From: Planctomycetia bacterium
Lineage (GTDB): Bacteria > Planctomycetota > Phycisphaerae > Phycisphaerales > SM1A02
Direction: 5' to 3'
Assembly (NCBI GenBank): GCA_005790605.1
Contig: SXUI01000065.1
Span: forward strand, 1-33,780
Length of the DNA: 33,780 nt
Under the pieces are notes generated by a model. The model saw only the letters and a program-made list of their open reading frames with translations, did not search any database and was not told the origin of the DNA. A program made the translations under genes and the position numbers. Shown here piece after piece: positions 1,707 to 18,842 of the stretch (the first letter of the stretch is position 1; every line of letters begins with the position of its first letter).

Positions 1707-3227
1707 TTATGCATGAATCTTTCGCACGGTCGCCGCTGGAATGCCAAGTTGTTCGCGGTACTTCACAACCGTGCGGCGAGCGATCTCGACACCGCGAGCC
1801 TGCAATTGTTCGGCAATCGCCCGGTCGCTGAGTGGATGATGGCGATCCTCGCCTTCCACGACCTCGGAGAGCATCGCTTTGATCGCGTTCCAAGAGACAT
1901 CTTCGCCCTCTCGATTCTCCGTGCCGCCCGCGAAGAAATCCCGGAGTCGCACGAGACCGCGTGGCGATGCCATCCACTTCTCTGCAACCGCTCGGCTCAC
2001 GGTGCTGACATGGATCCCAAGTTGCTCAGCGAGATCGGTCATCGGCATGGGACGCAAGAAGTTCGGCCCATGTTCGAACCACTCGCGCTGACGCGAGACG
2101 ACTGCCTTGGTCACTCGCGCAAGCGTCGTCTTGCGTTGCTCAATAGCCTCAAGCAAGGTCCGCGCCGCGCGGACACTGTCGCCGGCGAATGCGCGCGCAG
2201 CCTTATCCGCAGACTTGTCCTCCGCGAGCTCTTCGTACTCGCGCGAAACTCGCACGCGCGGAATCAACTCGTCAGAGAGTCGCACCGTGTACTCATCCGC
2301 ATCTACATCGAGTTCGACAATCACATCCGGCACGATGGGTTCATTGCTTGGCGGAACAAGTGCGTAGCCTGGCGCGGTCGTCAGGCGACGCATCACGCTC
2401 TTTGCCTCATCGATTCTGGCATAGTCCATGCCGCTCGCACCGCAGATCTTGGGAAGTCGATTCGCAAGCAGGTCGTCATAGTAGTTCTCAAGGAGTGCGA
2501 GCGCGTCGCTCCACACCACCGCCGTCGCTTCTGTCTGCGCCTCTTCAAGAGCCGCGGATGCTTGCAGTCGCAAGCAATCTCGTACGGAAGTCGCACCTAA
2601 ACCAGGCGGGCTCAATTCATGTTGAAGGCGCGTAAGCCCGCGCTGCAGGAGTTCCATCGACCAGTCGCAACCCGGCATGGAAGCCGATTGATGCAGCACT
2701 GTTTCAAGATCCGCGCTCAACAAACCCTCAGGGCCGATGTACTCAATCAAGCGAGCGCCGACTGCGCGAAGTTCGGGATCGTGAATCTCCGAAAACGACC
2801 ACTGCTCAAGCAGTTGCTCGGTTAACGACGCGCCGCTGCCAGCGGTGTTGTTCATCGCCGACAACTTCGGGTCCTCGTCGGAATCGCTCGCCCGACTCGG
2901 CCGATAGTCTCGATCACCCGACCACTGATCGCCGTAACTTCGCTCCATCAACCGGAGCCGCTCAAACTCTGTCGAGCCACCGCCCTGCGGTGCATCTTCG
3001 CGAGTCGAACTCGTGCGAGTCTTGACCGCGTCGAGTGACTGCGGTCGATCATCCCCCGGCTCGACGATCTCAAGCGCGACATTCGTCTCAAGTTCACGAT
3101 CGAGTCGCTCGCGAAGCGCGAGCAATGGCAACTCAAGTATCTCCGCCGCTTGAATCAACTTCGGCGTGAGCGCAAGATTCTGGCCTTGCCGCAGTCCCTG
3201 AGAAGTTTCAAATCGCATTCCGCTCAT
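1707..3227 (-). CDS. rpoN: RNA polymerase sigma-54 factor RpoN
   Basis: This 506-residue protein has the full sigma-54 plan. The N-terminal region I is Gln/Leu-rich (LRQGQNLALTPKLIQAAEIL), which contacts the activator. An acidic, variable region II follows, then the core-binding domain, a helix-turn-helix segment (LAEQLGIHVSTVSRAVAEKW) and the C-terminal RpoN box at about 483-492 (ARRTVVKYRE), which reads the -24 promoter element. Length is normal for the family. Start is the ATG at 3227; a second ATG at 3218 is possible. It lies 174 bp after recR on the same strand. Its probable targets are in this window: sigma-54-type promoters stand upstream of fliE and fliK, and an NtrC-type activator is encoded at 20220-21749. 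It should therefore direct part of the flagellar programme. Confidence 0.96.
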   Translation of the reverse strand: MSGMRFETSQGLRQGQNLALTPKLIQAAEILELPLLALRERLDRELETNVALEIVEPGDDRPQSLDAVKTRTSSTREDAPQGGGSTEFERLRLMERSYGDQWSGDRDYRPSRASDSDEDPKLSAMNNTAGSGASLTEQLLEQWSFSEIHDPELRAVGARLIEYIGPEGLLSADLETVLHQSASMPGCDWSMELLQRGLTRLQHELSPPGLGATSVRDCLRLQASAALEEAQTEATAVVWSDALALLENYYDDLLANRLPKICGASGMDYARIDEAKSVMRRLTTAPGYALVPPSNEPIVPDVIVELDVDADEYTVRLSDELIPRVRVSREYEELAEDKSADKAARAFAGDSVRAARTLLEAIEQRKTTLARVTKAVVSRQREWFEHGPNFLRPMPMTDLAEQLGIHVSTVSRAVAEKWMASPRGLVRLRDFFAGGTENREGEDVSWNAIKAMLSEVVEGEDRHHPLSDRAIAEQLQARGVEIARRTVVKYREQLGIPAATVRKIHA

Positions 3228-3401: not shown

Positions 3402-4022
3402 TTACAAGCCCGTTCGCCCCGCGATCGCGTCGGCGATAACTCCCGGATTCGCTAAGTCGATTTGACTTCCGCTCGCGAGCCCTCGCGCAAGTCGCGTCAC
3501 CCGCACCCCGCGCTTTCCCGCCTCCCGCGCAATCCAAAGCGCCGTTGTGTCACCTTCAAGATCTGGGTTCATCCCGAGCACAAGTTCCTCAACCGCGACT
3601 GACTGCGCGTTCTTGGTCGCGTCGTCAAGACGCGCGAGCAGAGGTTGCAGCACGATGCCCTCAGGACCAACGCCCGCGAGTGGGTCCAACCGACCAAGCA
3701 ACACATGGTAGATCCCACGAAAGGATCCAGCCTTCTCAATCGCAAGAACATCCTTCGGCTGCTCCACAACGAGCACGATGGACGCTTCTCGACGAGCATC
3801 TGAGCAGATGCCGCACTGTTTGTCGTCGCAGATGTTCCAACAGATTGGACAGTGCGAGATTTTCGTCTTTGCGTCCTTGATTGCTTCAGCGAGCGCATCC
3901 GCATCCGCAGGGCTCTCACGAAGCACATGAAACGCGAGCCGCTCGGCGCTTCGACGGCCGATGCCGGGAAGCCGCGCGAACGCGTCGATGAGCCGCGAGA
4001 CCGCCTCAGGATAGCCTTTCAT
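3402..4022 (-). CDS. recR: Recombination mediator protein RecR
   Basis: The 206-residue product matches RecR from end to end. A helix-hairpin-helix region lies at about 15-30 (RLPGIGRRSAERLAFH). A four-cysteine zinc site follows (C58-x2-C61 and C70-x2-C73). A Toprim domain follows (VVEQPKDVLAIE, then the LGGRLDPL-like segment LLGRLDPLAGVGPE). RecR acts with RecO and RecF to load RecA on gapped DNA. The ATG start overlaps the ybaB stop by four bases (ATGA), so translation is probably coupled. The dnaX-ybaB-recR order is widely conserved in bacteria, which supports all three calls. Confidence 0.97.
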   Translation of the reverse strand: MKGYPEAVSRLIDAFARLPGIGRRSAERLAFHVLRESPADADALAEAIKDAKTKISHCPICWNICDDKQCGICSDARREASIVLVVEQPKDVLAIEKAGSFRGIYHVLLGRLDPLAGVGPEGIVLQPLLARLDDATKNAQSVAVEELVLGMNPDLEGDTTALWIAREAGKRGVRVTRLARGLASGSQIDLANPGVIADAIAGRTGL

Positions 4023-4393
4023 CCGAGCATCCCTTGCACTGCTTCAGGAGGAAGCGGAATGTCCATCTCCTTCGCGGCCTCCGAGAGTTCGCTCGCAAGT
4101 CGCGCTCGCGCGATGTCGAGCGCGGCATTCACGCACTCCGCGATGAGCCTATTCGCGTAGGCGGTGTCCGCGCTGCTCCCCGATGCAAGGCCGCGGATCA
4201 TGCTTGGTGCGAGTTCAACTTGCGTGATACGAAGGTCGCAAGTCGCGCGGACTTGCACCGCGCCGCCACCGACGACAGCCGAGACCTCGGTCGTCGCGAG
4301 ACGTGCTTTGATTTCATCCATGCGTGCTCGCAGCTTCGGCAAGTCCTTCAACATGCCACCAAGTTGCGATGCCAACTTGAGTTTCTCAAACAT
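4019..4393 (-). CDS. ybaB: YbaB/EbfC-family nucleoid-associated protein
   Basis: The small protein (124 residues from the ATG at 4393) is helical at both ends with a beta-rich centre (VVGGGAVQVRATCDLRITQV), the plan of YbaB/EbfC DNA-binding dimers. The start is chosen because GGAGG lies seven bases upstream of this ATG; the longer frame would need a TTG at 4399. It sits 38 bp after dnaX and overlaps recR by four bases. Family members bind DNA and are linked to nucleoid organisation; its exact role beside DnaX and RecR is not settled. Confidence 0.93.
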   Translation of the reverse strand: MFEKLKLASQLGGMLKDLPKLRARMDEIKARLATTEVSAVVGGGAVQVRATCDLRITQVELAPSMIRGLASGSSADTAYANRLIAECVNAALDIARARLASELSEAAKEMDIPLPPEAVQGMLG

Positions 4394-4431
4394 CCGCAAA
4401 CCTCCATCAACAAACTCGACAACTGCTGCAC

Positions 4432-6243
4432 TCAGTGGGACTCTGGCGCGTCGTTCGCCACCGTTTCGGTCGAGCCCGCGAGCGGAAGACGAGTGACTTC
4501 CACGATACTCGCATCAAACAGTTCCATCACGCCGCGGACGATTGGATCGTTGCGCACTGAGGCATCGATTCCAATCGCAACGCTCGGCGCGGGCGCCGTC
4601 GTTCCCAGTCGCGGTCGCAGATCAAACTGCACGGGACCGTTGAGGACCCGCCGCAGCAACGCGCGCACGCGATCGGGATTGTCCAAGACGAACCGTCCGG
4701 AGGCCGTCGAAGCATCGGCGTCGAGGACAACCCGCACCTCGTCGCGCGTTCGGGTGAACTCGATAAGTGCAAGTTCGCCGATCAGCGCGTTGTCCGCCGG
4801 GCTTTGCTCACCGACAACGGCAAGTTGCGCGCGGAGTGCCTCAAGCGAATGAATCTCAACCGATTCGCATGACACGGAGTTTGGCGCGGAGTTTGGCGAA
4901 GCACTCACTGTGCGCGGCGGCAGAGCCCGAGGCTCAGGCACTGCGGGACGGGGCAACGCGCTCGCTCGTGATTCCTGACCCCCAACACGCTCGGTGCGGG
5001 GGTCATCCGCTTTTTTTGCGTCAACCCCTGTGGGCGTTCGAGGCGCACCAGCAAGAAGTGCCGCGCCCGAAGCGAAGCGCGATGCCAGCGCGAGGCGCAC
5101 GAGGCACGCATCGAAGAGCGCGCGGGGAGCGCTTGACGCTCGAATGCTGCGGCCAATGCTGTCACACGCGGCAATCGCGTGCACGCAGTAGGCAGGATCC
5201 ACCCGCGGTGCCAATCCAGCGAGTCGATCTCGCGATGCGCTCGCACACTCGAGCAACGCACTCTCGCCTCCGCAGGTCGCGGCGACGAGCAACCAGCGGA
5301 AGCGTTCCGCAAGCATGTCGAGCGAGTGCTCAACCGCGGTTCCGCCTTCAAGCAGCTTCCCGCCGATGGCAAGCGCGTCGGCGCATCGTTCCTCCACGAT
5401 TGCCGCAATCAAGTCAAGAAGCAGCGCGTCTTGCGGAAGCCCGAAGACTTGTTCGAGGAGAGCAGCGTCGACCCGATGATCCGTGCTTGCAGCAAACAGT
5501 CGGTCGAGCAAGCTGAGGCCATCGCGCATGGATCCATTTGCCATGCGCGCAACGGCGAGCAGCGCGTCCGTGCTCGAGTCCATGCCTTCCTTGACGGAAA
5601 CCACGCCGAGGTGCTTCGCAATCTCTGTCGCAGGAATGTTGCGAAAATCAAAGCGCTGGCAACGCGACTGAATTGTCTGCGGAACCTTGTGTGGTTCGGT
5701 TGTGCAGAGAATGAACTTCACATGACTCGGTGGCTCTTCCATCGTCTTCAACAACGCGTTGAAGGCCGGCGTGGTCAGCATGTGCACTTCATCGATGATG
5801 TAGATGCGGTACTTGCCACGAGTTGGCGCGAGTCCCGCCCCCGCGATGAGTTCGCGCGCATCGTCGATGCCGCGATTCGAAGCGCCGTCGATCTCCATCA
5901 CATCAAGGTCTTCGCCGCGGAGAATCGCCTCTCCGACCGCGCCTTGGTCGCCTTCGCCTTGCCCCGCATTCAGCGCGCGAGCAAAGATCCGAGCGAGTGA
6001 AGTTTTTCCAACGCCGCGCGTTCCACAGAAGAGATAGGCATGCGCCGTGCGACCAGTCGCGATCGCATTTCGGAGTGTGCGAGCGATGGGTTCCTGTCCA
6101 ATCAAGTCCTCAAACTCACGCGACCTGTAGCGCCGCGCGAGCACTGTGTAGGGCTTGCGCGACTGCTCCGTCGTGAGCGGTGTCATGACGACATCCTCAA
6201 CGAGCGCAGCGGAGTCCGGAGATCGAACAGACTTCTTGGCCAT
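4432..6243 (-). CDS. dnaX: DNA polymerase III subunit tau (DnaX), with probable frameshifted gamma form
   Basis: The 603-residue protein is the clamp-loader ATPase. Walker A is GTRGVGKT at about 74-81, Walker B/DEVH at about 151-154, and the SRC arginine-finger motif near 193-195. The C-terminal third is Pro/Ala-rich, then tau-specific. The four-cysteine zinc module that normally sits between the first helices after Walker A and the (D)V(M/I)EID segment is absent: the region is a short Gly/Gln-rich linker with no cysteine. At codons 409-411 the mRNA reads GCA AAA AAA, a slippery run followed by a stable hairpin; a -1 shift adds Ser-Gly and stops, giving a 413-residue gamma-like product. Start options are ATG 6243 (used here), TTG 6258 and ATG 6186; only 6186 has a clear ribosome site (GAGG eight bases upstream). 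It follows the SRP RNA gene and precedes ybaB. Confidence 0.95.
   Translation of the reverse strand: MAKKSVRSPDSAALVEDVVMTPLTTEQSRKPYTVLARRYRSREFEDLIGQEPIARTLRNAIATGRTAHAYLFCGTRGVGKTSLARIFARALNAGQGEGDQGAVGEAILRGEDLDVMEIDGASNRGIDDARELIAGAGLAPTRGKYRIYIIDEVHMLTTPAFNALLKTMEEPPSHVKFILCTTEPHKVPQTIQSRCQRFDFRNIPATEIAKHLGVVSVKEGMDSSTDALLAVARMANGSMRDGLSLLDRLFAASTDHRVDAALLEQVFGLPQDALLLDLIAAIVEERCADALAIGGKLLEGGTAVEHSLDMLAERFRWLLVAATCGGESALLECASASRDRLAGLAPRVDPAYCVHAIAACDSIGRSIRASSAPRALFDACLVRLALASRFASGAALLAGAPRTPTGVDAKKADDPRTERVGGQESRASALPRPAVPEPRALPPRTVSASPNSAPNSVSCESVEIHSLEALRAQLAVVGEQSPADNALIGELALIEFTRTRDEVRVVLDADASTASGRFVLDNPDRVRALLRRVLNGPVQFDLRPRLGTTAPAPSVAIGIDASVRNDPIVRGVMELFDASIVEVTRLPLAGSTETVANDAPESH
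4976..5029 (-). promoter_or_regulatory. Programmed -1 ribosomal frameshift signal in dnaX (tau/gamma switch)
   Basis: Read on the minus strand, the elements come in the canonical order. A Shine-Dalgarno-like AGGGG (5029-5025) is followed by seven bases, then the heptamer A AAA AAA (5017-5011) in the correct X XXY YYZ phase with the dnaX frame (GCA AAA AAA GCG). Five bases later a hairpin starts: 5' arm TGACCCCC (5005-4998), 3' arm GGGGGTCA (4983-4976), a perfect 8-bp stem. Four more pairs (GCAC with GTGT, one G-U) can form inside with a single bulged base and a five-base loop. In the -1 frame the codons after the slip are AGC GGA TGA, so the stop is reached at once, at the foot of the hairpin. 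The E. coli dnaX signal has the same three parts. Transcriptional slippage on the A7 run is an alternative route to the same protein. Confidence 0.85.
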
Positions 6244-6302
6244 GGAGCGAGGTACCAAAGTGCGAGGGCGCAGGTCGCTGGGCAGTGTCCAAGGACCACA
6301 GT

Positions 6303-7843: not shown

Positions 7844-9604
7844 TCAACGACCGAGCGCGAGGAGTTGGTTGATCAACTCATCCGTTGTCGTGATCACTCG
7901 GCTCGCAGCGGAGTATCCGGTGCTTGCGAGGATCATGTTGATGAATTCTTGCGAGAGGTCGACATTGGAAAGCTCGAGCGCGCCGCCCACGAGCCGGCCC
8001 GTTCCGAAATCACGCGGCTTCGCAACGAGCGGCGTTCCTGAATTCGGTCCCGTGCGGAAGACATTGTCGCCGCCATCCACGAGACCCTCTGGGTTGGAGA
8101 ACTTCGCAAGCGCGATCTGACCAATCGCTCGGGTCAGTCCATTCGTGAAGGAGCCAGCGATGATGCCATCCTCGCCGATCGAGAAGTTGGCAAGGGTCCC
8201 GATCGAAGAACCATCTTGGTACACCGCGGCGAGATTTGACGCAGAGTCCGTCAAACTCGAGACGGAGTCCGCGCCCGAATTGAAGTCCATATTGACCGTC
8301 AAGGGCGAGACTGCACCATTCGTGCGCGTAATCGAGAACGCCTGATTTGTCGCGGAGAGGAATCGACCGCTTGCATCGAAGCTGACTTCGCCAAGTCCGA
8401 TCAAACGCGCCGCAGCATCGTTGTCGTTGCTCTCAGCCACAAACTGCCAAGTCGTTCCGCCGCTCGCTGAAGTTGCCTGCAACACGAAGGTCAGGTCGAT
8501 GGTGAGTGGCGTCCCAAGCGAGTCGTACACGACGAAGCTCGTGCGCACACTTTCACCAGTCGCGGAACCGGTCTTGGTAAGCACGAGTGGCTGACCGCTT
8601 CCTGCACCGGGTGTGGTCACGACGAAGTCTGCAGTTTCGAGCCCGAGTTCCTGCACCGTACCTTCGTTCCCTTGAATGACGAGCTGGCCCCCAGCGTTGA
8701 TCGAAACAGTGCCGCCAAGATTCGAGTTCGACCCGATCGCCGAGTTGTCGACGCCGAGAATGTCTTCGAGATACGAAGTGAAGTCACCAAGCGTTGTTCC
8801 AAATCCATCAGAGCCAGCAACCGCGGTTGCGCTAAACGCAAAGCTGTGCGTCTCAAGGTCCTTGCCGCCCTTCTCAACGCCGCTGAGCGTGATGACCTTT
8901 GGATTGGTTGAACTATCGAAGGCCATGACAAACCCGCCCGCGCCATCGGACATGTAGACATCCGTCGTGGTGAGATCAGTTGACGCATCGACCGGGATGG
9001 TGAGCGCCGCATCCGTAAACCATGCGCGGCCCTCATGCACCGAGCCCGTCGTTCCAACCGTTCCCGATGCATTCAGATTGCCGTTGAAAATCACATTACG
9101 ACTCGCCTCCGCGAGCGTCAGCGTTCCAACTGGAACGGAAAGCGGCACAAGGTCGCCCTCAATGACATTGAACTGTTCGTCCACGGAAAAACCCATGACG
9201 CGCGCGCCACTCTGCGTCACGAGTTCGTTCTGCGGATTGCGCACGAAGTTTCCCGAGCGGGTGAACGCGCGCGAACCAGCGACATCGACGATGAAGAATC
9301 CATCGCCCTCGATCGCCACATCGGTCGCCACGCCCGTCGCGCCAATCGCGCCATTGTTGAAATTTCGCTGCGTGCCGGCGATCGTGACGCCAAGTCCAAT
9401 CTGACCTGGGTTCGTGCCGCCGTTGTTTCCACTCGGCGCGCTCCCGAGGGAGAAGTTGCGGCTGAAGGTTGGCGTGAACTGGATCCGGTTCGACTTGAAC
9501 GCGGTGGTGTTCACATTCGAGATGTTGTTACCGATCACATCGAGCCTGCGAGAGTTCGAGATGAGTCCCGAGAGGCCAGTGAAGAGTGCGGTTGTTGATG
9601 CCAT
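7844..9604 (-). CDS. flgE: Flagellar hook protein FlgE
   Basis: The 586-residue protein has the axial-protein plan: an N-terminal heptad region with the flagellar rod/hook signature (SRRLDVIGNNISNVNTTAFK), the IEGDGFFIV turn after it, a long variable Ser/Thr/Gly-rich middle that would form the outer hook domains, and a C-terminal helix (QEFINMILASTGYSAASRVI). FlgE polymerises about 100-200 copies into the hook. The start at 9604 is chosen because GGAGG lies nine bases upstream and the product then begins as FlgE proteins do; a longer frame reaches 9700 with no family support. It is the last gene of the flagellar run, 31 bp after the TIGR02530-like gene. Confidence 0.95.
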   Translation of the reverse strand: MASTTALFTGLSGLISNSRRLDVIGNNISNVNTTAFKSNRIQFTPTFSRNFSLGSAPSGNNGGTNPGQIGLGVTIAGTQRNFNNGAIGATGVATDVAIEGDGFFIVDVAGSRAFTRSGNFVRNPQNELVTQSGARVMGFSVDEQFNVIEGDLVPLSVPVGTLTLAEASRNVIFNGNLNASGTVGTTGSVHEGRAWFTDAALTIPVDASTDLTTTDVYMSDGAGGFVMAFDSSTNPKVITLSGVEKGGKDLETHSFAFSATAVAGSDGFGTTLGDFTSYLEDILGVDNSAIGSNSNLGGTVSINAGGQLVIQGNEGTVQELGLETADFVVTTPGAGSGQPLVLTKTGSATGESVRTSFVVYDSLGTPLTIDLTFVLQATSASGGTTWQFVAESNDNDAAARLIGLGEVSFDASGRFLSATNQAFSITRTNGAVSPLTVNMDFNSGADSVSSLTDSASNLAAVYQDGSSIGTLANFSIGEDGIIAGSFTNGLTRAIGQIALAKFSNPEGLVDGGDNVFRTGPNSGTPLVAKPRDFGTGRLVGGALELSNVDLSQEFINMILASTGYSAASRVITTTDELINQLLALGR

Positions 9605-9635
9605 AAGAAAAACCTCCAAGTGTCGGAAGCAACTT

Positions 9636-10190
9636 CTACGCGGCGGACGCGCCACGCGAAGCGGAGCCCATACCAACGGGATCCGCGCTCTGTGCAGCAA
9701 GGTCTGTGCCAGTCATCGACTCGGCATCCGTTGCCGTTTCCCGCGCAAGAACGATCTGCTCTTGCACAGCAAGGGGCGTGAGCGCATGCAAGACAAGCAC
9801 TCGTGAGCCAGCGCTCGCGCTCCTTGCTCCGATGCGAATGGCGCAATCGATCGCTTCGAGCGCTGCACCAAGCGGCCGCTCCACGCTTCGAGTCGCTACA
9901 TCCGCGACGAACGGACCCTCATGCGTCACAATCAGCGCGCGGCGAAACCCTCGAGCCTCGGCCTGATCAAGGGCCTGCGCGATCTCTTCGAGTTCAGTCT
10001 GGTTGAGATCCGCGCCGCCACGCGCATCGACCGTGCGATGCGACTGCAGCTCTCCATCCCGTGCGAGCTCAAGCAATGCATCGAAGCCGCCGTCCGCGAC
10101 CGACACGCGTGCGGCACTCGACTTCCCAGAACTCGCCGGGCGAATCGCCGGTTCAAGCCTGCGCAAGAGTTGACGCGGATCAATCGTCAT
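9636..10190 (-). CDS. TIGR02530-like flagellar operon protein
   Basis: The 184-residue protein sits exactly between flgD and flgE, the position typical of the short flagellar operon family TIGR02530 (flg_new). The match is by position plus a central segment of the right style (DLNQTELEEIAQALDQAEAR, then RALIVTHEGPFVADVATRSV, then the AIDCAIRIG segment). Family members are small soluble proteins found only in flagellar operons; their function is not established. It lacks a signal peptide and membrane segments. It lies 15 bp after flgD. Confidence 0.75.
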   Translation of the reverse strand: MTIDPRQLLRRLEPAIRPASSGKSSAARVSVADGGFDALLELARDGELQSHRTVDARGGADLNQTELEEIAQALDQAEARGFRRALIVTHEGPFVADVATRSVERPLGAALEAIDCAIRIGARSASAGSRVLVLHALTPLAVQEQIVLARETATDAESMTGTDLAAQSADPVGMGSASRGASAA

Positions 10191-10205
10191 CGGGACTTCG
10201 GCGTG

Positions 10206-10691
10206 TTAGCCGCCACCGCCTGATGCTCCGCCACCACTCGAGCCGCCGCCAGTACCGCCCGTTGGAGTCGATGGCGTCGCAGGTGGCGAATCAATGAACT
10301 CAACATTGTCCATGGGCAGCAACCAACCAGTATTGAGCACCAGTCCCACGGAATCACCGTCTCGAATCACGCTTTGCACGGTTCCGCCAACGCGAATCGC
10401 GTCCTGCGTGAGCCCACTGACGCGCTTCCCGATGAGATTGCCAGCACTCGCGAGTTGGTTCTGGAACACGATGGCACCCAATCGCTCTTGCAATTGGATG
10501 TCGGTCTCGATCGATCGAATGGAGTTCAACTGTTCGAGCAACGCAGAAGAATCGCTCGGCTTGAATGGGTCCTGATTCGAAAGCTCCGTGAAGATGATTC
10601 TCATGAAGTCTTCACTACTGAGTTCGTTGAAGCGACTTGGCAAAGATGCGGTCGATCCGACTGCAGCGGCATTACTAGCGATTGCGCTCAT
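10206..10691 (-). CDS. flgD: Hook assembly scaffold protein FlgD (short form)
   Basis: The 161-residue protein has the conserved FlgD N-terminal half: SSEDFMRIIFTELSNQDPFK followed by the SSALLEQLNSIRSIET helix. FlgD caps the growing hook and controls FlgE polymerisation. A segment of about 55 residues follows (LIGKRVSGLTQ to NVEFID), which fits the Tudor-like fold, but the FnIII-like part of longer FlgD proteins is missing. The protein ends in a Pro/Thr then Gly/Ser tail. Its ATG overlaps the fliK stop by four bases (ATGA). It is probably expressed with fliK, the TIGR02530-like gene and flgE. Confidence 0.9.
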   Translation of the reverse strand: MSAIASNAAAVGSTASLPSRFNELSSEDFMRIIFTELSNQDPFKPSDSSALLEQLNSIRSIETDIQLQERLGAIVFQNQLASAGNLIGKRVSGLTQDAIRVGGTVQSVIRDGDSVGLVLNTGWLLPMDNVEFIDSPPATPSTPTGGTGGGSSGGGASGGGG

Positions 10692-12385
10692 GAGCGGGCT
10701 CCATTCAATAGTGCGGAGGCAAAGGAATCTGCGGTTTGAAGTGCGTCGGCTGCGCGCGCGCGAGTCCCAGACCCTGATCGAGCACCGTGGTCTTGACGAC
10801 CGCGCGACTCTCCGTGGGCACTGTCTTGGCGCGCTGACGACTGCTGTTGATTCGAACGATCTTGCGATGCGTCGTTGTGTGTGTTTGCTGCGATGGTCGC
10901 GCGCCGATCACCGGATGCCAGTGCGGCGCTCGCTTGTTCAGCATTCGCACCGCGCTGCAAGGTGGATGGGGTTGCGGTTCCTTCGACTTGCAACCGATCG
11001 ACATGCAAGCCCTGCGACTCAAGCGCGCCGCGCAACGCACCAAGGTGCATCTCAAGAATCGCGCGCGCCTCAGGCGTCGCTGCGCGGAAATCCACGCGAA
11101 CGCTTCCTTGATCCATCACCATCTTGACTTGCACCGCGCCTAGTTCGGGCGGATCAAGTCGAATCGAAAGTGTGCCGCCCCGCTGCTGCGTGAGTGCCGC
11201 GAGACCTCGCGCGACAAGTTTGCTGTTCGATTGCGCGGCAAGTTCGGGCGCGGGCGCGGAAGCCGCAGCAAACTCTGGCGCAAGGAGAACCGCCTGCGTC
11301 GCCTGAGGTGCGCTTGGTGAAGATTGGACCATTCCGATCTGTGAAGCGACGACTCCTGTGTTGGCGAGAGAAGGCGTCGAGGCCGCAGTGGCGCCGTTGG
11401 GCGACGCCTGCAACGGCATTGGCTCTGCTTCGATTGTCGTGACGGTCTCCGCTTGATTGGCGAGTGCGATTTGGCTTTCGACGGCGGTCAAGCGCGATGC
11501 AATCGCCTGCGCACTGGCGTTCCCGTTGGCCAGCGACGCGCCAATCCTAGAAGCTTCGTGAGCCGACGCATCCATCGCTGCTCGACCCGCCATTCGCGGC
11601 GACGGCAAGAAGGAATGCTCGAGGACCGAGAACGGCAACTCAAGCGCTGAGGCGGTTGAGAGCGCGCTCGTCGCGGCCTGCTTCGCGGTGTTCGGCTGTT
11701 GGGCGCGCGCGGCGGCGCTGGTGAAAGTGGAAGCCTGACTCGGTGAGGCAAGTTGCGGTCGAAGTGCCAATGCAAGTTGCAGCGCTTGCGTAGATTCCTT
11801 CGGCGAAAGTTGCAACTTGATTGGCTCAACCGAACTCAACGAGACGCCGCTCTCGGCGCGATCCACACTCGTCGAAGCGTCAGCTTGCACGGTTGCGAGG
11901 AATGGCGCTACTGAACTCGATTGCCCCTCGACGCTTTGCGACGCGACGCGTGCCTGCGACACCGCAGGAGACGACAAAGCGACGGTTGGGTTCGCACGGA
12001 CGGCTTCAATCTCTGCGGCCACATTGCCCGTCGCCGCTGCTTCAAGACTCGCTCGCGACTGCTGGGGAGAAAGAGTCGACTCTGTCCCGTTCTCGACGAC
12101 CGAATCAGGCTCGCGTGACGGATCACCACCATGCTCCGTAGACATTCGCGGCTCCGCGTCAGCCTGGGCGACCGCGCTCAAGGCATTTGAAGTGCCATCG
12201 CAAAGATCTTCGCGTGCGCTTCTCCGATGGCTTTCCTCGACCGTCTGGGCTTCCGTCACATCTTGAAACGCGCCGCGAAAATCACCGCGCGCATCCGCGG
12301 CCGGCGAAGTCGTAGGCGCAGAAACTGCACCCAGTCGGGCGGATCCTGCGGCAGCAAACGGAGAAGTTGGCGAGAAATCAACCAT
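10688..12385 (-). CDS. fliK: Flagellar hook-length control protein FliK
   Basis: The 565-residue protein is long, Ala/Ser/Gln-rich and of low complexity for about 400 residues, as expected for the ruler part of FliK. The conserved C-terminal domain is recognisable by the motif RLDPPELGAVQVKMVMDQG followed by VRVDFRAATPEAR and the LRGALESQGL segment. FliK measures the hook and switches export from hook to filament subunits. The tail is rich in Gln, Asp, Ser and Arg. Start is the ATG at 12385; a TTG at 12397 is possible. A strong sigma-54-type promoter and a hairpin lie in the 83-bp gap upstream. Confidence 0.9.
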   Translation of the reverse strand: MVDFSPTSPFAAAGSARLGAVSAPTTSPAADARGDFRGAFQDVTEAQTVEESHRRSAREDLCDGTSNALSAVAQADAEPRMSTEHGGDPSREPDSVVENGTESTLSPQQSRASLEAAATGNVAAEIEAVRANPTVALSSPAVSQARVASQSVEGQSSSVAPFLATVQADASTSVDRAESGVSLSSVEPIKLQLSPKESTQALQLALALRPQLASPSQASTFTSAAARAQQPNTAKQAATSALSTASALELPFSVLEHSFLPSPRMAGRAAMDASAHEASRIGASLANGNASAQAIASRLTAVESQIALANQAETVTTIEAEPMPLQASPNGATAASTPSLANTGVVASQIGMVQSSPSAPQATQAVLLAPEFAAASAPAPELAAQSNSKLVARGLAALTQQRGGTLSIRLDPPELGAVQVKMVMDQGSVRVDFRAATPEARAILEMHLGALRGALESQGLHVDRLQVEGTATPSTLQRGANAEQASAALASGDRRATIAANTHNDASQDRSNQQQSSARQDSAHGESRGRQDHGARSGSGTRARAADALQTADSFASALLNGARS

Positions 12386-12429
12386 AGAGAGCACCAAAGC
12401 CCCTTGCAGGGGGACTCGTCTCCGAAGGT

Positions 12430-12445
12430 TGCAATTGGAGTGCCT
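12430..12445 (-). promoter_or_regulatory. Sigma-54 (-24/-12) promoter upstream of fliK
   Basis: The minus strand reads AGGCACTCCAATTGCA. Against the consensus TGGCACG-N4-TTGC(A/T), the GG and GC pairs have the required ten-base separation, and only the first T and the G after CAC differ. With GC at 12432-12431, transcription should begin near 12419, about 35 bases before the fliK ATG. The -24 element overlaps the 3' arm of the hairpin at 12442-12462. rpoN and a sigma-54 activator are encoded in the window. Confidence 0.7.
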
Positions 12446-12462
12446 CGGCGCGAAGCCGAGGC
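12442..12462 (-). terminator. Hairpin after the MotE-like gene
   Basis: A perfect 8-bp stem, GCCTCGGC with GCCGAGGC, and a five-base loop start seven bases after the stop of the upstream gene. No T-run follows. It may end or slow transcription of the upstream segment, separating it from the fliK-flgD-flgE unit that has its own promoter immediately after. Confidence 0.5.
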
Positions 12463-12468
12463 GGTTCG

Positions 12469-13281
12469 TCAGCCCTTCACGCTCACGGGCGCGTTCGCAG
12501 CAGGCGCGTCCTGCGGTTGAGGCTTCGGAGGGGCAGCCGCCGCGGAGGCGGGTGTGACTGGGCTAGTTGGTGGCGCGGTTGGCTTTGACTTCGACGCTTC
12601 AGCTTGTTCACTCTCGAGTCCGAGAGAACGAAGCCTCTCAAGTAAGTCCGTTGCGATCTTCGCTTCTGACGCGGTCTTGAATGCCTTCAGCAGATTCGCA
12701 CTCTTCGTGCCGCTCATCGCGTCGAGGTATTTCACCGCTTGCTCCACTTTCCCACTCGCCACGAGTTCGAGAATCCAGTCTTTGCTCTGCTTGGGCGGCA
12801 TCCCTTCAAGCAGCTTGACTGCCTTCTTGAACTGCTCGCTCGTCTCACGCTGCTTTTCATCCGCGATCGCCTGCTCCCACGCCGTCCGACGCGCATCAAG
12901 CGCGTTCTCACGAGTCGCGACAGCATCTTCGCGCTCGCCGATTTTGTTCGCAAGGCGTACTTGCTCATCGTTGAGCGATTTCATCGCGAGTTGCGCGCGC
13001 TCCTCAAAGCGCTCGGAGGCCGCGATCTGCTCAACGCGCGTGAATGGCGCTTCGAGCAGTTTGCGATCTTCAGCCGCCACGCGTGCAGTCTCCTCTGCAA
13101 TCGCCGTTTCTTCAGCGAGCCGCGCCGCATCTTCCGTCGTGCTTGACGCGAGAATCGTCTTCAAAAGTTCGAACCGCTGCGTGTCCATCCGTCCGGTCTG
13201 CCAGAGCCAGCCCACAAATGCACCGAGCGCGATGAGGTTCGAGATCGCGAGGATGGAAAGGAGTCGCCAGAGCGTTTTCAT
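12469..13281 (-). CDS. MotE-like flagellar protein (membrane anchor plus coiled coil)
   Basis: The 270-residue protein starts with an uncleaved signal-anchor-like segment (about 6-28, ILAISNLIALGAFVGWLW). A long charged coiled coil follows (about 50-160, rich in Glu/Ala/Arg). Next is a compact helical segment (AVKLLEGMPPKQSKDWILEL) like the MgtE N-terminal fold found in MotE/FlbB proteins. The C-terminal 45 residues are Pro/Ala-rich. MotE in alphaproteobacteria is a periplasmic chaperone of the motor protein MotC; related genes next to fliJ/fliK in other phyla are less studied. It overlaps the fliJ stop by four bases. The call rests on position and architecture, not on a database match. Confidence 0.7.
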   Translation of the reverse strand: MKTLWRLLSILAISNLIALGAFVGWLWQTGRMDTQRFELLKTILASSTTEDAARLAEETAIAEETARVAAEDRKLLEAPFTRVEQIAASERFEERAQLAMKSLNDEQVRLANKIGEREDAVATRENALDARRTAWEQAIADEKQRETSEQFKKAVKLLEGMPPKQSKDWILELVASGKVEQAVKYLDAMSGTKSANLLKAFKTASEAKIATDLLERLRSLGLESEQAEASKSKPTAPPTSPVTPASAAAAPPKPQPQDAPAANAPVSVKG

Positions 13282-13736
13282 GAAGTTCCTTCCTGCTGCT
13301 TGCGTTGGGCAAGATCTGCGCCGAACTCATCAAGTTGGTCTCGTTCCTTCTTCTCCTCGGCACGACGCCATTCCGCCGCGCGCGCATCTCGGAGCATTTC
13401 CAACGCGCGACGCTCTTGCGCCGCGACAACCATTGCAGCCCGCGCAGCCTGCAGTCCTCGATCGAGCCCTGAGAGTTCGATGACCGTCCGCTGCGCCTTT
13501 CGGAAGAGGCCGAGTCCCGCATTCGCATGCTGACGAAGTTGCGTTGGGTCGATCGCGCCCACCATCGAACTCCGCCATGCTTCGCGGCTCAACTGGATCT
13601 CCGCCTGTCGCGCGCGAAGCCCTTCTTCTAGGCGAATGCGCATCGCATCGATGCGCGCAAAGGCCGCGCGCTTCTCTTCTTCGACCTGCATCCGGCGCTC
13701 AAGCGCGCGTTGGAGTTTGAAAATGAATCGTGCCAT
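13278..13736 (-). CDS. fliJ: Flagellar export protein FliJ
   Basis: The 152-residue protein is almost entirely charged coiled coil and begins in the FliJ manner (MARFIFKLQRALERRMQVEE). FliJ forms the central stalk inside the FliI hexamer and links it to FlhA, by analogy with the gamma subunit of F1-ATPase. It lies six bases after fliI and overlaps the MotE-like gene by four bases. Length and position are typical. Confidence 0.9.
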   Translation of the reverse strand: MARFIFKLQRALERRMQVEEEKRAAFARIDAMRIRLEEGLRARQAEIQLSREAWRSSMVGAIDPTQLRQHANAGLGLFRKAQRTVIELSGLDRGLQAARAAMVVAAQERRALEMLRDARAAEWRRAEEKKERDQLDEFGADLAQRKQQEGTS

Positions 13737-13742
13737 CGTGTC

Positions 13743-15140
13743 TTAGCGACGCGCTCGCGCGCCTCCGTTTGGTGTTGTCGTCGTATGCGCAGCCGGCGAG
13801 GCTCCAGTACTGCTACTGCGCAGCGCATCGGCGGCGAGCGAGAGCTCAATGAGCGATCGAAGCGACTGCGGGTACTCCGCACGCTCGTCGCGATCCTGCT
13901 TGAGGAACTGATCGATGTGTGGCTTCATGACAATCGCAGCGTCGACATCAGGGGACGCGCCCTTCTGATACGCCCCGATGGCGAGTAGTTCCTCCGCCTC
14001 TCGATGCGCAGACAGGAGCCGGAGCACATGACGCCGAGCCTGCGTATGCGCGGCATCCGAAACTTGATCCGCCACGCGAGAGATCGACTGCAGTGGATCA
14101 ATCGCGGGAAAGTGCGAGCGCTCAGCAAACTTGCGACTCAGAACGATGTGTCCGTCAAGAATGCCCTTCGCTGCATCGGCAATCGGCTCGGTGAAATCAT
14201 CGCCTTCCACAAGCACGGTGTAGAAGCCTGTGATGGAGCCACCCGACGCAAGCCGCCCCGCGCGTTCAAGGACACGCGGAAGCAGTGCGAAAACGCTCGG
14301 AGTAAATCCCTTCGTGGCTGGCGCTTCTCCCGCAGAAAGACCGATCTGTCGCTGCGCCTGCGCGAATCGCGTGATGGAATCGAGCATGAGAAGCACATCT
14401 TGCCCCTCGCCGCGGAAGTGCTCCGCGATCGAACAAGCCGCGAGCGCAGCCCGAACTCGCATGAGCGGAGTCTCGTCACCCGTCGCCACAACGACGACGC
14501 TCCGCGCCAGTCCGGCCTCACCAAGAACATGCTCAAGGAATTCAGGAACTTCACGGCCTCGCTCACCGATGAGCCCAATCACATTGACATCGGCATCTGT
14601 GCCGCGCGCGATCGAGCCTAAGAGTGTGCTCTTGCCAACGCCAGGACCCGCGAAGATCCCGATGCGCTGACCCTTGCCCACCGTCAGAAATGAATCAATC
14701 GCTCGCACACCAGTGGGAAGAGGATCGCGAATGACACCGCGCTCAAGCGGACCGGTTCTCGCTGGCCAAAGCGGCTGCGGCGAACCTGTGAGAATCGCGC
14801 CCTTTCCATCCAACGGTCGACCAAGTGCATCCACCACTCGTCCAAGCAACTGGCCTGAGACAGGGATCGAAGCGATCGGCCGCTCGCCGATCACCTTGAC
14901 GCCACTGCCAATACCATCCGCTTCACCGAGCAACATGACGAGCGCGCGCGGTCCGTCGAATCCGACAACTTCACCACGCGGGTGCTCTCTCCGAGTCGTG
15001 ACGGCAACGCGTACGAGCGATCCAACGGGCAAGGGCAGACTGTCAACGACGACCACGAGCCCTTTGACGGCCGCAACAGTGCCGACGATTTCTCGTGGTT
15101 CCACCGATGGCATCGCGGCACGGATCGCCGCGAGATTCAT
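13743..15140 (-). CDS. fliI: Flagellum-specific ATPase FliI
   Basis: The 465-residue protein is a complete type III export ATPase related to F1-beta. Walker A is GPGVGKST at 165-172. The GERGREV motif follows at about 192-198, then the Walker B segment VLLMLDSITRFAQAQRQIGL. The LAxGxxPATKG-like segment is seen as SAGEAPATKGF. Hexameric FliI unfolds and escorts export substrates at the base of the flagellum, with FliH as regulator and FliJ as stalk. The ATG at 15140 overlaps the fliH stop by four bases. The last 25 residues are Ala/Thr/Arg-rich and variable. Confidence 0.96.
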   Translation of the reverse strand: MNLAAIRAAMPSVEPREIVGTVAAVKGLVVVVDSLPLPVGSLVRVAVTTRREHPRGEVVGFDGPRALVMLLGEADGIGSGVKVIGERPIASIPVSGQLLGRVVDALGRPLDGKGAILTGSPQPLWPARTGPLERGVIRDPLPTGVRAIDSFLTVGKGQRIGIFAGPGVGKSTLLGSIARGTDADVNVIGLIGERGREVPEFLEHVLGEAGLARSVVVVATGDETPLMRVRAALAACSIAEHFRGEGQDVLLMLDSITRFAQAQRQIGLSAGEAPATKGFTPSVFALLPRVLERAGRLASGGSITGFYTVLVEGDDFTEPIADAAKGILDGHIVLSRKFAERSHFPAIDPLQSISRVADQVSDAAHTQARRHVLRLLSAHREAEELLAIGAYQKGASPDVDAAIVMKPHIDQFLKQDRDERAEYPQSLRSLIELSLAADALRSSSTGASPAAHTTTTPNGGARARR

Positions 15141-15907
15141 GTTGCATCCCCAGATGGAGGCGGCTGCGGAGTGGCTCGTCGATCGGGCATGGTCGTGCGC
15201 GGCGTGTCGCCAACCATCGCTTCTTGGATGCGACGAAACTGCGTCGTCAGTGTCGCGTCGACGGAGCCTTCGGGCGTAGTCACCAGAATGCCGCCGCGAC
15301 CGACCGATTCTTGTTGCTCGAGACGTACCGAAGGATTTCCACCAACAACGGAGATGAGCGCGGGCAACTCGCGCTCAAGAATCGCGTAATCGTCGGGGTG
15401 ACATCGAACGACGAGAGTGGTGGCCTTCGAGACAAGCGCGATCGCCGCCTCGACTTGCCGAACGACCGCCCAATCATCCACAGCCACCGCGGTCCGCGCG
15501 GCCTTCTCAGCGATCATGACCGCAAGCGCCGCGAGGTCTCGCTCGGCCTCCTGCATCCGCTCCTCGCGCACCGATTGCCAGCGAACCAGTTCCTTCACAT
15601 ACGCCGTCGAAAGTGCCTCAAACCGCGCATTCCACTCGACTCGCGCGGCCTCATGACCCGCGCGCTCACCCGCCGCAAGTCCATCGCTCTCACCTTTGGC
15701 AAACCCCTTCGCGAGACCTTCGGCGTGCGCCCGCTTCCGCTCGACATCCACAATCTGCACGGCGTCGATGCGAGCCTGTGCGACCAATCGCTCGGCTTCG
15801 AGTCGCGCCGCGCGAAGCGTTTCTTCCGCGCCGCGACGAAGATCGGTGAGATCGAAGGCGCCACACGCGAGGTTGACGCTCTTAGATTGTTGCTTGATGA
15901 CGCTCAT
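15137..15907 (-). CDS. fliH: Flagellar assembly protein FliH
   Basis: The 256-residue protein has the FliH plan. An N-terminal helical part (LRAARLEAERLVAQARIDA) is followed by the repeated GxxxG/AxxxG pattern (about 66-86) that marks this family. The C-terminal half resembles the V/A-ATPase E-subunit (ALAVMIAEKAARTAVAV, then VRCHPDDYAIL, then GRGGILVTTPEGSVDATL). FliH holds FliI in check and docks it to the export gate. It ends in a short Pro-rich tail. It lies 41 bp after fliG. Confidence 0.93.
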   Translation of the reverse strand: MSVIKQQSKSVNLACGAFDLTDLRRGAEETLRAARLEAERLVAQARIDAVQIVDVERKRAHAEGLAKGFAKGESDGLAAGERAGHEAARVEWNARFEALSTAYVKELVRWQSVREERMQEAERDLAALAVMIAEKAARTAVAVDDWAVVRQVEAAIALVSKATTLVVRCHPDDYAILERELPALISVVGGNPSVRLEQQESVGRGGILVTTPEGSVDATLTTQFRRIQEAMVGDTPRTTMPDRRATPQPPPSGDAT

Positions 15908-15948
15908 CGGAACCTCGTCTCACGGCGTGCGCGGCAATCACGCGCGAA

Positions 15949-16989
15949 TCAGACCACGACATCCTTCTCGCCACCGCGACCAGAGATGATGATCTCGCCC
16001 GCGTCCTCAAGTCGACGCACGATGTCAACAATCCGCTGCTGCGCAGCTTCAACATCGGACATGCGAACCGGCCCCATGAACTCCATGTCATCGCGCACCG
16101 CCTCCGCGGCGCGGCTCGACATGTTCGTGAAGATCTTCGACTTGAGGTCGTCACTCGCGGTCTTGAGTGCCATGCACAACTCAGAGTTGTCCACTTCCTT
16201 CAGCACGGTCTGGATGCCCTTGTCATTGACATTGAGGATGTCCTCGAACACGAACATGCGACGACGAATGTCCTCGACGAGATCGGGGTCTTCGCTTTCG
16301 ACGCCCTGCATGATCGTGCGTTCCGTCGCGCGATCCACGAGGTTGAGGATTTCGGCGACGGTTTCAACACCACCCACTTTTTCCATGGAGGAAGAAATCA
16401 TGTTAGAGAGCCGGCTCTCAAGCGCAGCCTCCACTTCTCGCACGACCTCTGGATTCGTCTGCTCCATGTTGGCGACGCGCCGCACAACCTCAACCTGCTT
16501 TTGCGGCGGAAGTCCAACGAGGATCTCACTCGCCTTGTGATGCGCGAGGTGACTCACGATCAGCGCGATCGTCTGCGGGTGCTCATCCTGAATGAAAGTG
16601 AGCAGGTTGCCGCTCTCCGCGCGCTGCAAGAAGGAGAACGGCGTGCGCTGGACCTGGGTTTGGATTTGCTGAATGACTTTGTCAGCAAGCTTCGGGTCAA
16701 GCGAATTCTTGAGGAGTGTCTTGGCATAGTCGAGTCCACCTTCACGGAGATACCCCTGCGCCATCGCGAGGGAATAGAACTCACTGATCACTTGCTGTCC
16801 GAGTTCTCGCGGCACATCACCGAGACTCGCCAAGGCGCGCATGACTTCTTCGACTTGCTCTTGCGGAAGTTCTCGCAGGATCGATTGCGCCGAGCCCTCT
16901 TCGAGCATGAGCAGCAAGATCGCACACTTGACGGTGCCATCAAGTTCTTCCATGGACTTCTGAGGCTTGAGCGTAGTAGTTCGCGCCAT
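15949..16989 (-). CDS. fliG: Flagellar motor switch protein FliG
   Basis: The 346-residue protein matches FliG in full. The N-terminal domain (KCAILLLMLEE) binds FliF, the middle domain holds the EHPQ motif (DEHPQTIALIVSHL), and the C-terminal domain has the charged torque helix (MFVFEDILNVNDKGIQTVL, then SDDLKSKIFTNMSSRA). FliG sits on the MS ring and turns ion flow into rotation. Start is the ATG at 16989. It follows fliF by 26 bp, so the two are probably co-translated and assembled together. Confidence 0.97.
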   Translation of the reverse strand: MARTTTLKPQKSMEELDGTVKCAILLLMLEEGSAQSILRELPQEQVEEVMRALASLGDVPRELGQQVISEFYSLAMAQGYLREGGLDYAKTLLKNSLDPKLADKVIQQIQTQVQRTPFSFLQRAESGNLLTFIQDEHPQTIALIVSHLAHHKASEILVGLPPQKQVEVVRRVANMEQTNPEVVREVEAALESRLSNMISSSMEKVGGVETVAEILNLVDRATERTIMQGVESEDPDLVEDIRRRMFVFEDILNVNDKGIQTVLKEVDNSELCMALKTASDDLKSKIFTNMSSRAAEAVRDDMEFMGPVRMSDVEAAQQRIVDIVRRLEDAGEIIISGRGGEKDVVV

Positions 16990-17015
16990 AGCGTGGGTGC
17001 TTCCTCAGGCTTGTT

Positions 17016-18725
17016 TCAGGCGGTGTTGCGCATCCAGCGCTTGAGAATGCCCGCGAGGTCTGTTGCGTCGTGTTTCGCGATGTCGTTGAGTTGCTTCACC
17101 ATCTGCTGACGACGAAGACTTTCGTCATCGAGTTCCATGCCCTCAAGCGCGGGCGTCGCTTCATCAGCCTCGCCCACGATGTCGGCGTCATCACCGTCAA
17201 GCGCTGGCGGAATTCCTGCAAGCTCCTCTGCACTCGGAAGTGGTTCTTGCACCGCAGCCTTTTTCACCATGCTGAACATGAAGAACAAACTGCCGATCGC
17301 GAGAAGTCCCAACAACGCAGGCTTGATCAGCGTTCCGCCGATGCCGTCGCTCGAAACGATCTCGCCAAGATCAAGCCCAGCGGTGGCTGCGGGCGCGCCG
17401 CCACTCGCCGTGTTCATGTCCACATCGAAGTACCAACTGACTTCCACCACGCCCTTCTTCGATTTTTCGTAGGCATCGGTGCTGATCTGCGTCTCTAGCA
17501 GCTTTCGAATCTTCGAAATCTCGGCATCCCGCACAAGCGCGAGCGCCGCCTCGTCGGGTTCGGTCGTCGAGGTTGGATTCATGAGCTTCCATACACCTCG
17601 GAAATAGGTGTACGGCAGCGCCACGCCAACATCGATCTTCGCGGCGTATCCGGTCGGATCGATCGAGGTCTCTTGCGTCGATGGGACTGCAGGCAGGTAC
17701 CGATTGTCCGATCGCTCGGTCGATTGATGCGACGCGCCGCCGTTAGTTTGCGCGACACTGATCCCAGTGTTGGGAACGACGCCAGGTTCCCGCCCGGGCG
17801 CTGCGCCTTGCGAAGTCGTGCTCGACGCAGATTCGGAGAGCGGCATCACGACGCCCTCACCGTATTCGGTCTTCGTTCGCGTCACAGCAGCGGTTACCAC
17901 TTGTGGATTCACGCTGATGAGGACGCCTGGAATGTTCGCGAGCAGATTTGCAATCCGCGTGTGGACAGCTTCGGCAACCTTCAGCGAGTACTCCAGATTT
18001 TCGCCCGTGGCGTTGCTTCCGCTGCGCGCGACCTTGTACCGGCGCGCTTGATCGGTGACCGAGACATTTTCTGGTTTCAGGCCCGACTGCGTTCCCGCAA
18101 CCATCGCCGCGATCGCCTCGACCTGATCCTGCGAAAGCTCGCCCGACTTCATGACGACATTCACCATCGCCGTTTGCGTGGCACGCATGGAGCCCAGGCT
18201 GAGCGGCGGCTTCTGCGAGATCACGACCGTCGCGCTCTTGACGCCTTTGAATCCCGAGATCGTCCGACCGAGCACATTCTGCAGCGCAAAGTGCTTCTTG
18301 TCTTCACTGCGTCGACCGGTCTCGAACGGGTTGTCGCTTTCGAAGAGTTTGTTGAAGTCCAAGAGGTCCGACGCACCACCGTGCGCCTCCGTGAATCCGC
18401 TCACGAGTGTCGCGTGTTGTTCGACTGGAACGAGAATCTGTCCGCCAGTCTCCTCGTAGTTCACACCGCGATCGCTGAGAAAGCGCTTCGCTTCATCGCG
18501 GCCAGTCGGAAGAACCTCAAACGCGACCATCGACCGCGTGGAGGAATACTGCGCGACGAGGAAGAGCGTCAGTCCAATGATGACGACTAAGGAACCCGCG
18601 AGGAGCTTCGATGTGGGGGTGAGCCCACTGAGCTTCGTGCGGATGGACTCAAGAATGTTTCGAATCGCCTGCAAGGGCAACGGCCTCCATGCCGTGACTG
18701 CCGGAATGTTCCGACTGCGCTTCAT
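17016..18725 (-). CDS. fliF: Flagellar MS-ring protein FliF
   Basis: The 569-residue protein has a first membrane helix (LLAGSLVVIIGLTLFLVA), the YscJ/FliF ring-building domain (about residues 60-225), a Ser/Gly-rich periplasmic loop, a second membrane helix (ALLGLLAIGSLFFMFSMV) and a C-terminal tail with the FliG-binding segment (QLNDIAKHDATDLAGILKRW). The start is uncertain. ATG 18725 is used here. A TTG at 18674 has GGAGG nine bases upstream and gives a protein beginning LQAIRNILES, closer to the usual FliF N-terminus; a TTG at 18746 is also open. A 150-bp gap separates it from fliE and contains a weak sigma-54-like sequence. Confidence 0.95.
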   Translation of the reverse strand: MKRSRNIPAVTAWRPLPLQAIRNILESIRTKLSGLTPTSKLLAGSLVVIIGLTLFLVAQYSSTRSMVAFEVLPTGRDEAKRFLSDRGVNYEETGGQILVPVEQHATLVSGFTEAHGGASDLLDFNKLFESDNPFETGRRSEDKKHFALQNVLGRTISGFKGVKSATVVISQKPPLSLGSMRATQTAMVNVVMKSGELSQDQVEAIAAMVAGTQSGLKPENVSVTDQARRYKVARSGSNATGENLEYSLKVAEAVHTRIANLLANIPGVLISVNPQVVTAAVTRTKTEYGEGVVMPLSESASSTTSQGAAPGREPGVVPNTGISVAQTNGGASHQSTERSDNRYLPAVPSTQETSIDPTGYAAKIDVGVALPYTYFRGVWKLMNPTSTTEPDEAALALVRDAEISKIRKLLETQISTDAYEKSKKGVVEVSWYFDVDMNTASGGAPAATAGLDLGEIVSSDGIGGTLIKPALLGLLAIGSLFFMFSMVKKAAVQEPLPSAEELAGIPPALDGDDADIVGEADEATPALEGMELDDESLRRQQMVKQLNDIAKHDATDLAGILKRWMRNTA

Positions 18726-18842
18726 CCTGAAGCGTTTGTGCCGCAACCGAGTGACACTGTCAGAGAAGGCTCATCGGCAGCAGGTCGTTTCAGCCTGCAG
18801 GAACTACCGAGAAAGGTTTTTGCGCGCAGGAACTGCGTGAGG

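Follow-up and report, generated by a model that had tools for sequence, protein, structure and literature searches.

The dnaX gene of a planctomycete from the order Phycisphaerales very probably carries a programmed -1 ribosomal frameshift signal. Standard decoding of this gene would yield the tau subunit of the clamp loader, and the shift would yield gamma. The gene lies on a stretch of 33,780 nucleotides, here called the window, which covers positions 1 to 33,780 (forward strand) of contig SXUI01000065.1 in GenBank assembly GCA_005790605.1 (Planctomycetia bacterium; GTDB lineage Planctomycetota, Phycisphaerae, Phycisphaerales, SM1A02). Comparison with relatives also makes it likely that, within this one order, dnaX recoding has moved repeatedly from slippage of RNA polymerase to frameshifting of the ribosome. 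Either mechanism in dnaX was previously known from distant bacteria, Escherichia coli and Thermus. With both present inside one order, and inside its families, the switch itself becomes open to study.

The gene is identified by TIGR02397 dnaX_nterm (E 1.5e-107, 359.9 bits against a cut-off of 250), with Pfam matches to DNA_pol3_delta2, DNAX_ATPase_lid and DNA_pol3_gamma3. The original prediction, made from the letters alone, named three parts in order and in phase: an AGGGG word resembling a Shine-Dalgarno (SD) sequence, the slippery heptamer A_AAA_AAA, and a hairpin starting five bases further on. All three are present, exact to the base (Table 1). The run of seven A's (A7) starts on the third base of a codon. 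The hairpin has a predicted fold of about -20 kcal/mol, with three further pairs predicted inside its loop. The prediction had called the eight-pair stem extendable by four. Four outer pairs do form in the predicted structure once the flanks are included, interrupted by a bulge. A search of positions 4700-5300 against Rfam gave no dnaX family, and the three matches returned were irrelevant and far under their gathering scores.

The claimed -1 stop after two codons, at the hairpin foot, is present as AGC GGA TGA. Recomputing the product lengths gave the values first proposed: 603 residues for tau (64.2 kDa) and 413 for gamma (44.0 kDa), counted from an ATG that is codon 6 of the open frame. The dnaX frame itself (the 0 frame) stays open for 192 codons past the site, which means that the window does not have the swapped form described below. 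Its first +1 stop comes only after 34 codons. The site also departs from the Thermus type, having seven A's and not at least nine, and an early stop in the -1 frame only.

The proposed mechanism is as follows. Ribosomes on the dnaX mRNA would meet A_AAA_AAA with a tRNA-Lys in both the P and the A site. They would pause there, with the hairpin ahead and an SD-like duplex behind. A fraction would slip back one base, add Ser-Gly and terminate at the UGA at the foot of the hairpin. This would release a gamma-like subunit holding the AAA+ ATPase, the lid and domain III. Ribosomes that do not slip would complete tau, and its C-terminal part presumably binds further subunits of the replisome. The gamma-like form beside tau, as originally predicted, fits the anatomy and its conservation; that the short form is expressed, that ribosomes slip in the cell and how often, and what each product does are inferred.

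Taken as a single sequence, the evidence is modest and the hairpin moderately special; it is the relatives that decide. The window holds two A7 runs where 2.15 are expected, and the hairpin z-scores are -2.87 (50 nt), -2.15 (48 nt) and -1.23 (106 nt). These figures would suit a coincidence, in which a Lys-Lys pair in a variable linker happens to be written AAA AAA and a GC-rich linker folds anyway. Related genes make such a coincidence hardly credible. The N-terminal coding parts of 74 related genes with a heptamer at the site, 27,069 codons together, hold 6 in-phase X_XXY_YYZ heptamers, or 0.010 per 45 codons, none of them A_AAA_AAA. The protein is not conserved at the site, with GK and PK replacing KK, and the minimum of the fold is located right there. 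The -1 stop follows after exactly two codons in 10/10 loci of genera g1 and g52. The conjunction of parts, together with their conservation, far exceeds chance.

The stem can be followed in some detail. In the window's own genus the 8-bp stem is kept in all four loci, while the loop differs. The prediction had feared for its claim if close relatives kept the protein and lost the A run and hairpin, and no such loss is seen in these four loci. Genus g52 (6 loci) has a stem of ten pairs in the same place. Two of its pairs each occur in three standard types, among them G-C replaced by A-U and by C-G; 2/6 loci have lost one pair, and 1/6 another. The proposed alignment of related genomes thus finds site, phase, hairpin and upstream word kept.

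Relatives were collected at several depths. A whole-genome protein search matched 60 of 61 genomes, the window's own included, two of them weakly (G020 and G026, E ~4e-10). A protein search of the phylum matched 189/195 genomes at E 1e-50, and one of the order 157/161 at E 1e-60, with 80 regions taken from the order list. The resulting 195 loci gave 170 distinct sites once duplicates were merged (L002 had no match). Left out of these were L046 (truncated), L048 (no signal) and L085 (from a distant class, with CCCAAAC), so that 167 were classified: 74 with a slippery heptamer, 90 with a poly-A run (A9-A12) and 3 with A8. The heptamers are 61 A7, 11 G_GGA_AAA, one C_CCA_AAA and one G_GGA_AAG. 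All 167 sites fall at residues 403-434 in the window's numbering, just past domain III.

Heptamer and poly-A sites, each in a normal and a swapped form, occur side by side in this one order and also in single families (f1, f2 and f5); no genus in the sample holds both. Three things here go beyond the original prediction. Runs of A9-A10, which hint at RNA-polymerase slippage, are common in the order; most heptamer relatives are swapped, so that the shift leads to tau; and the A run can be replaced by other slippery heptamers.

A few sites do not sort easily. The A8 sites, in L061 and in L168 and L172 (genus g210), stand between the classes; two of them, swapped and in phase 2, could suit ribosome and RNA polymerase alike. 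In L057 (A9) and L162 (A12) both the 0 and the -1 frame stop soon after the run and the +1 frame is long open, as though a net +1 change were required to make tau; the run may have been misassembled.

The chief alternative for the window is slippage of the Thermus type: RNA polymerase would stutter on the A7, and the altered mRNAs would give gamma. It draws on the A9-A12 runs at the same place in 90/167 sites, mostly with early stops in both other frames, and on Antonov et al. 2013 (PMC3711429; this and the other papers are cited from those parts of their text that were available), who ascribed poly-A dnaX genes, and arguably one with A7, to slippage. Several contrasts between the two classes make this very improbable for the window.

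The first contrast is codon phase. Phase 2 is the codon phase that permits tandem -1 slippage, and it matters to the ribosome only. Heptamers had been assigned to their class in phase 2 alone; the counts made without that selection cover residues 395-440 of all 170 loci. There, A7 is in phase 2 in 61/61 cases, a lock that slippage has no need of. A10 runs are spread 13/37/20 over phases 0/1/2, and A9 runs 1/8/9. Non-A heptamers of any phase, in loci without a run of at least seven A's, are in phase 2 in 14/14 cases, one of them being L085, which was set aside. One A7 lies off the site, at residue 347 of L082 and in phase 1; L082's site itself has A9.

The second contrast is the +1 frame. Stops in both other frames are required for Thermus-type slippage but dispensable for -1 ribosomal frameshifting. 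Within 10 codons, the +1 frame stops in 6/74 heptamer genes against 76/90 poly-A genes (rank test p 5.7e-22, kinship ignored), and the +1 frame of the window is likewise unguarded. In the -1 frame, 68 of 73 normal-form poly-A genes have a stop within 10 codons.

The third is the hairpin. The fold of a 45-nt window starting at +4 was compared with the mean of the local background. It lies below background at 15/15 normal and 55/59 swapped heptamer sites, and at 43/90 poly-A sites. Mean values for fold and background, in kcal/mol, are -22.1 and -15.2 (normal heptamer), -22.4 and -14.0 (swapped heptamer), and -11.6 and -12.0 (poly-A). The fold is at least 5 kcal/mol under background at 55/74 heptamer sites and 11/90 poly-A sites.

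The fourth, the SD-like word, is far stronger at heptamer sites. The calculated duplex with CCUCCU peaks about 6 nt upstream, at means of -5.2 (normal), -5.6 (swapped) and -1.0 kcal/mol (poly-A). An SD-like word is present at 64/74 heptamer sites (16/74 in a control stretch).

The fifth is the heptamer itself. In twelve loci the heptamer at this place, with unchanged phase, is G_GGA_AAA or C_CCA_AAA. These retain tandem re-pairing, and neither the A run nor the amino acids, so slippage on an A run cannot explain them. Of these contrasts, three serve as sequence criteria that part the classes without experiments: the phase, whether early stops guard the +1 frame, and the hairpin.

The hairpin could also be read on the other strand, as an intrinsic terminator where a stem followed by T7 would end antisense transcription. 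A consensus scan does flag T7 behind a stem of 5 pairs (4996-5010). The window holds 2 such sites, where shuffled sequence would be expected to give 1.8, and the conserved 8-bp stem stands 5 nt away from the T run, which is too far for usual terminator anatomy. Non-A heptamer loci have no T7 on that strand, yet their fold is under background in 13/13. A terminator therefore has next to no chance of being the explanation.

In the swapped form the 0 frame leads to gamma and the -1 frame to tau. This is the case in 59/74 heptamer genes, from 41 genera, and in 15/90 poly-A genes. In the 59 heptamer genes the 0 frame stops near the heptamer, in 50 of them after 0 or 1 codon, and the -1 frame is open for at least 69 codons in all. 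In hhalign, the -1-frame tails of the 59 align with 0-frame tails from poly-A genes (99.5%, E 3.9e-22, 128 columns), of which 72 out of 73 normal ones passed a length filter. The 15 normal heptamer genes have tails that align with the poly-A tails (99.4%, E 1.5e-21) and the swapped -1-frame tails (99.5%, E 2.3e-23) alike. As a control, +1-frame tails gave no hhalign match. The -1 frame of swapped genes thus encodes the C-terminal part of tau. An annotator would see the 59 genes as truncated, although tau runs on in the -1 frame. In family f2, which is probably Phycisphaeraceae, 47/52 classified sites are swapped heptamer genes.

Some observations come from further away. In L267, from a Clostridia metagenome assembly, dnaX has an A9 run after which the 0 frame ends almost immediately and the -1 frame is open for about 110 codons; this is a possible swapped gene outside the planctomycetes. 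Runs of A9-A10 after the conserved part also occur in the distant dnaX genes L219, L247, L270 and L221.

A number of findings weigh against a ribosomal signal, or against so clean a division of the classes. In E. coli, A_AAA_AAA is much less shifty than A_AAA_AAG (PMC5009743). A fold at least 5 kcal/mol under background is present at the 11 poly-A sites counted above, and it is lacking at 19/74 heptamer sites. An SD-like word is also found at 41/90 poly-A sites (16/90 in an upstream control), and SD binding there is slightly in excess (57/90, p 0.0093). The SD contrast is therefore a matter of degree and not clean. The anti-SD had to be assumed as CCUCCU, since a search for the organism's own 16S gave no small-subunit rRNA match in the assembly. 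Of three matches to a pattern for the 16S 3' end, the one in L307 was rejected as a source, its surroundings being not 16S-like by eye. In L020, the one gene with G_GGA_AAG, 57 codons pass before the -1 frame stops, and its site may be no signal. L048 (genome G036) has neither an A run nor an in-phase heptamer near residue 410, and so no recognisable signal; its dnaX may have lost the second product.

Kinship weakens some of the contrasts as well. A quick tree was made of the 167 N-terminal parts; its outgroup, families f7-f9, was not monophyletic. Seven independent pairs could be drawn on well-supported branches. Over these, phase and +1 stop reach a median p of 0.031 with no pair opposed, where for phase it should be kept in mind that non-A heptamers had entered their class by phase. 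For the hairpin 3.4 pairs agree and 0.1 disagree (median p 0.25), and for the SD-like word 3.5 agree and 0.7 disagree (median p 0.375); both lean the same way as phase and +1 stop, yet fall short of 0.05, which weakens the separation.

The minimum number of changes on this tree is 11 for mechanism, 20 for arrangement and 23 for the four combined states. The 11 mechanism changes hold for a poly-A root, which implies 9-10 gains of the ribosomal signal; a heptamer root needs 14. In families f7-f9 all 9 sampled loci are poly-A, and A9-A10 runs occur in 5/13 dnaX genes from other planctomycete classes. Parsimony and these two observations together suggest that the ribosomal signals are probably derived, and that the direction would have been from slippage to frameshifting. 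Several lineages of the order most likely exchanged A9-A10 slippage for this signal. The poly-A sites, judging by their likeness to Thermus, would work by slippage.

The path may have been short. Loss of one codon would turn A10 into A7 in phase 2, with an SD-like word and a hairpin gained alongside. The A run would then be replaceable, and small changes would exchange the roles that lead to gamma and tau. Selection would keep the ratio of the two proteins, leaving the level at which it is set, transcription or translation, free.

It could still be that ribosomes do shift here but the short protein does nothing by itself, and that the site tunes how much is made of tau or of the products of ybaB-recR downstream. 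The two genes, ybaB-like and recR, do lie close behind dnaX. Yet while the mechanism changed at least 11 times and the arrangement at least 20 times, signals have kept ending gamma at the same domain boundary; such persistence suggests that both products are wanted. In Caulobacter, where gamma is made by proteolysis, it is essential (PMC5009743). A site without a useful gamma is thus unlikely, if less so than slippage at the window's A7.

The number of lysine tRNAs was also looked at, as the two lysine tRNAs of Thermus may bear on its use of slippage (PMC5009743). In 161 genomes of the order, a tRNA-Lys(CUU) pattern is found in 142 and a (UUU) pattern in 160; 16 of the 161 have no classified dnaX site. 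By class, the CUU pattern occurs in 70/72 heptamer and 56/70 poly-A genomes. With the pattern common in both, the classes are not told apart by how many lysine tRNAs a genome has. The idea that heptamer genomes do without tRNA-Lys(CUU) was rejected on the same 70/72. ARAGORN called Lys(CUU) at 8/8 CUU-pattern loci. In the window's own assembly Lys(UUU) is the only one seen, among 37 tRNA genes; the same-genus genome G002 has Lys(CUU). The A-site codon is AAA in 73/74 heptamers, and A_AAA_AAG occurs in 0/74. This would be compatible with AAG being poorly slippery where it has a tRNA of its own.

The features of the site and its neighbours are collected in Table 1. Elsewhere in the window, a minus-strand flagellar run at 7844-21749 holds FlgE-like, FliK-like and FliF-like genes and a FliI-type ATPase. 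A sigma-54 response regulator lies at 20220-21749, and a sigma-54 factor gene at 1707-3227. The window's only other A7 (33700-33706, minus strand) lies opposite a plus-strand open frame, 33053-33778, that runs off the window end.

Table 1 Features of the dnaX recoding site and the genes downstream, in window coordinates.
Feature	Position	Strand	Remarks
dnaX, clamp-loader gamma/tau subunit	4432..6258	-	open frame from TTG 6258; likely start ATG 6243
AGGGG, Shine-Dalgarno-like word	5025..5029	-	7 nt (TTGACGC) before heptamer
Slippery heptamer A_AAA_AAA	5011..5017	-	codon phase 2; dnaX frame GCA AAA AAA GCG
Spacer GCGGA	5006-5010	-	5 nt between heptamer and hairpin
Hairpin	4976..5005	-	8-bp stem, TGACCCCC (5005-4998) with GGGGGTCA (4983-4976); loop 14 nt
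-1 frame after the slip, Ser-Gly-stop	5003..5011	-	AGC GGA TGA; TGA begins stem
Tau-specific C-terminal part, 0 frame	4435..5010	-	hhalign matches to relatives' tails
YbaB/EbfC-like gene	4019..4399	-	directly downstream of dnaX; TIGR00103 E 1.6e-05, under curated cut-off
recR	3402..4022	-	downstream of ybaB-like gene; TIGR00615 E 6.2e-60

The original prediction knew of no description of such a signal in this kind of organism. None was found in the open-access literature either, subscription papers and bioRxiv being outside its scope. By titles and abstracts, a search there for dnaX, frameshift and Planctomycet found dnaX recoding treated in PMC3711429 only, and one for dnaX and Phycisphaer found nothing. 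Likewise no description of the lineage, of non-A dnaX heptamers or of switching within an order was found, including in the available parts of PMC3711429, PMC5009743, PMC1088944 and PMC4066793. The kind of signal is known, from E. coli and, for the swapped form, since 2013; the lineage, the non-A heptamers and the within-order switching appear to be new against that open-access literature.

Genes of two reading frames, where tau needs recoding, are not new. Antonov et al. 2013 described 17 such dnaX genes from 12 genera, in a set that included two planctomycete genomes, and favoured slippage (PMC3711429). The 59 heptamer and 15 poly-A relatives share this form; the dnaX of the window is normal. 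In contrast to the slippage view, most swapped genes here carry ribosomal signals, and 12 do so without A7. The swapped form is rarer than the E. coli form according to a 2016 review, which also mentions the dnaX of Chlorobium phaeobacteroides as an unpublished candidate, with A7, the swapped form and E. coli-like stimulators (PMC5009743). It resembles the present lineage in the A7 and the swapping, yet belongs to another phylum and is a single case known by description.

Slippage on A9 in Thermus thermophilus also concerns dnaX, where early stops come after the A run and two products arise. What sets the window apart is an A7 in ribosomal phase, accompanied by a hairpin and an SD-like word, with the +1 frame unguarded. 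A close likeness is to E. coli dnaX, which has an in-phase slippery heptamer with an SD-like word upstream, a hairpin downstream and a near-immediate -1 stop, and where gamma comes from the shift and tau from standard decoding. The differences are that the window has A_AAA_AAA where E. coli has A_AAA_AAG, and that E. coli has a single lysine tRNA (PMC5009743), whereas 70 of the 72 scored heptamer genomes match tRNA-Lys(CUU).

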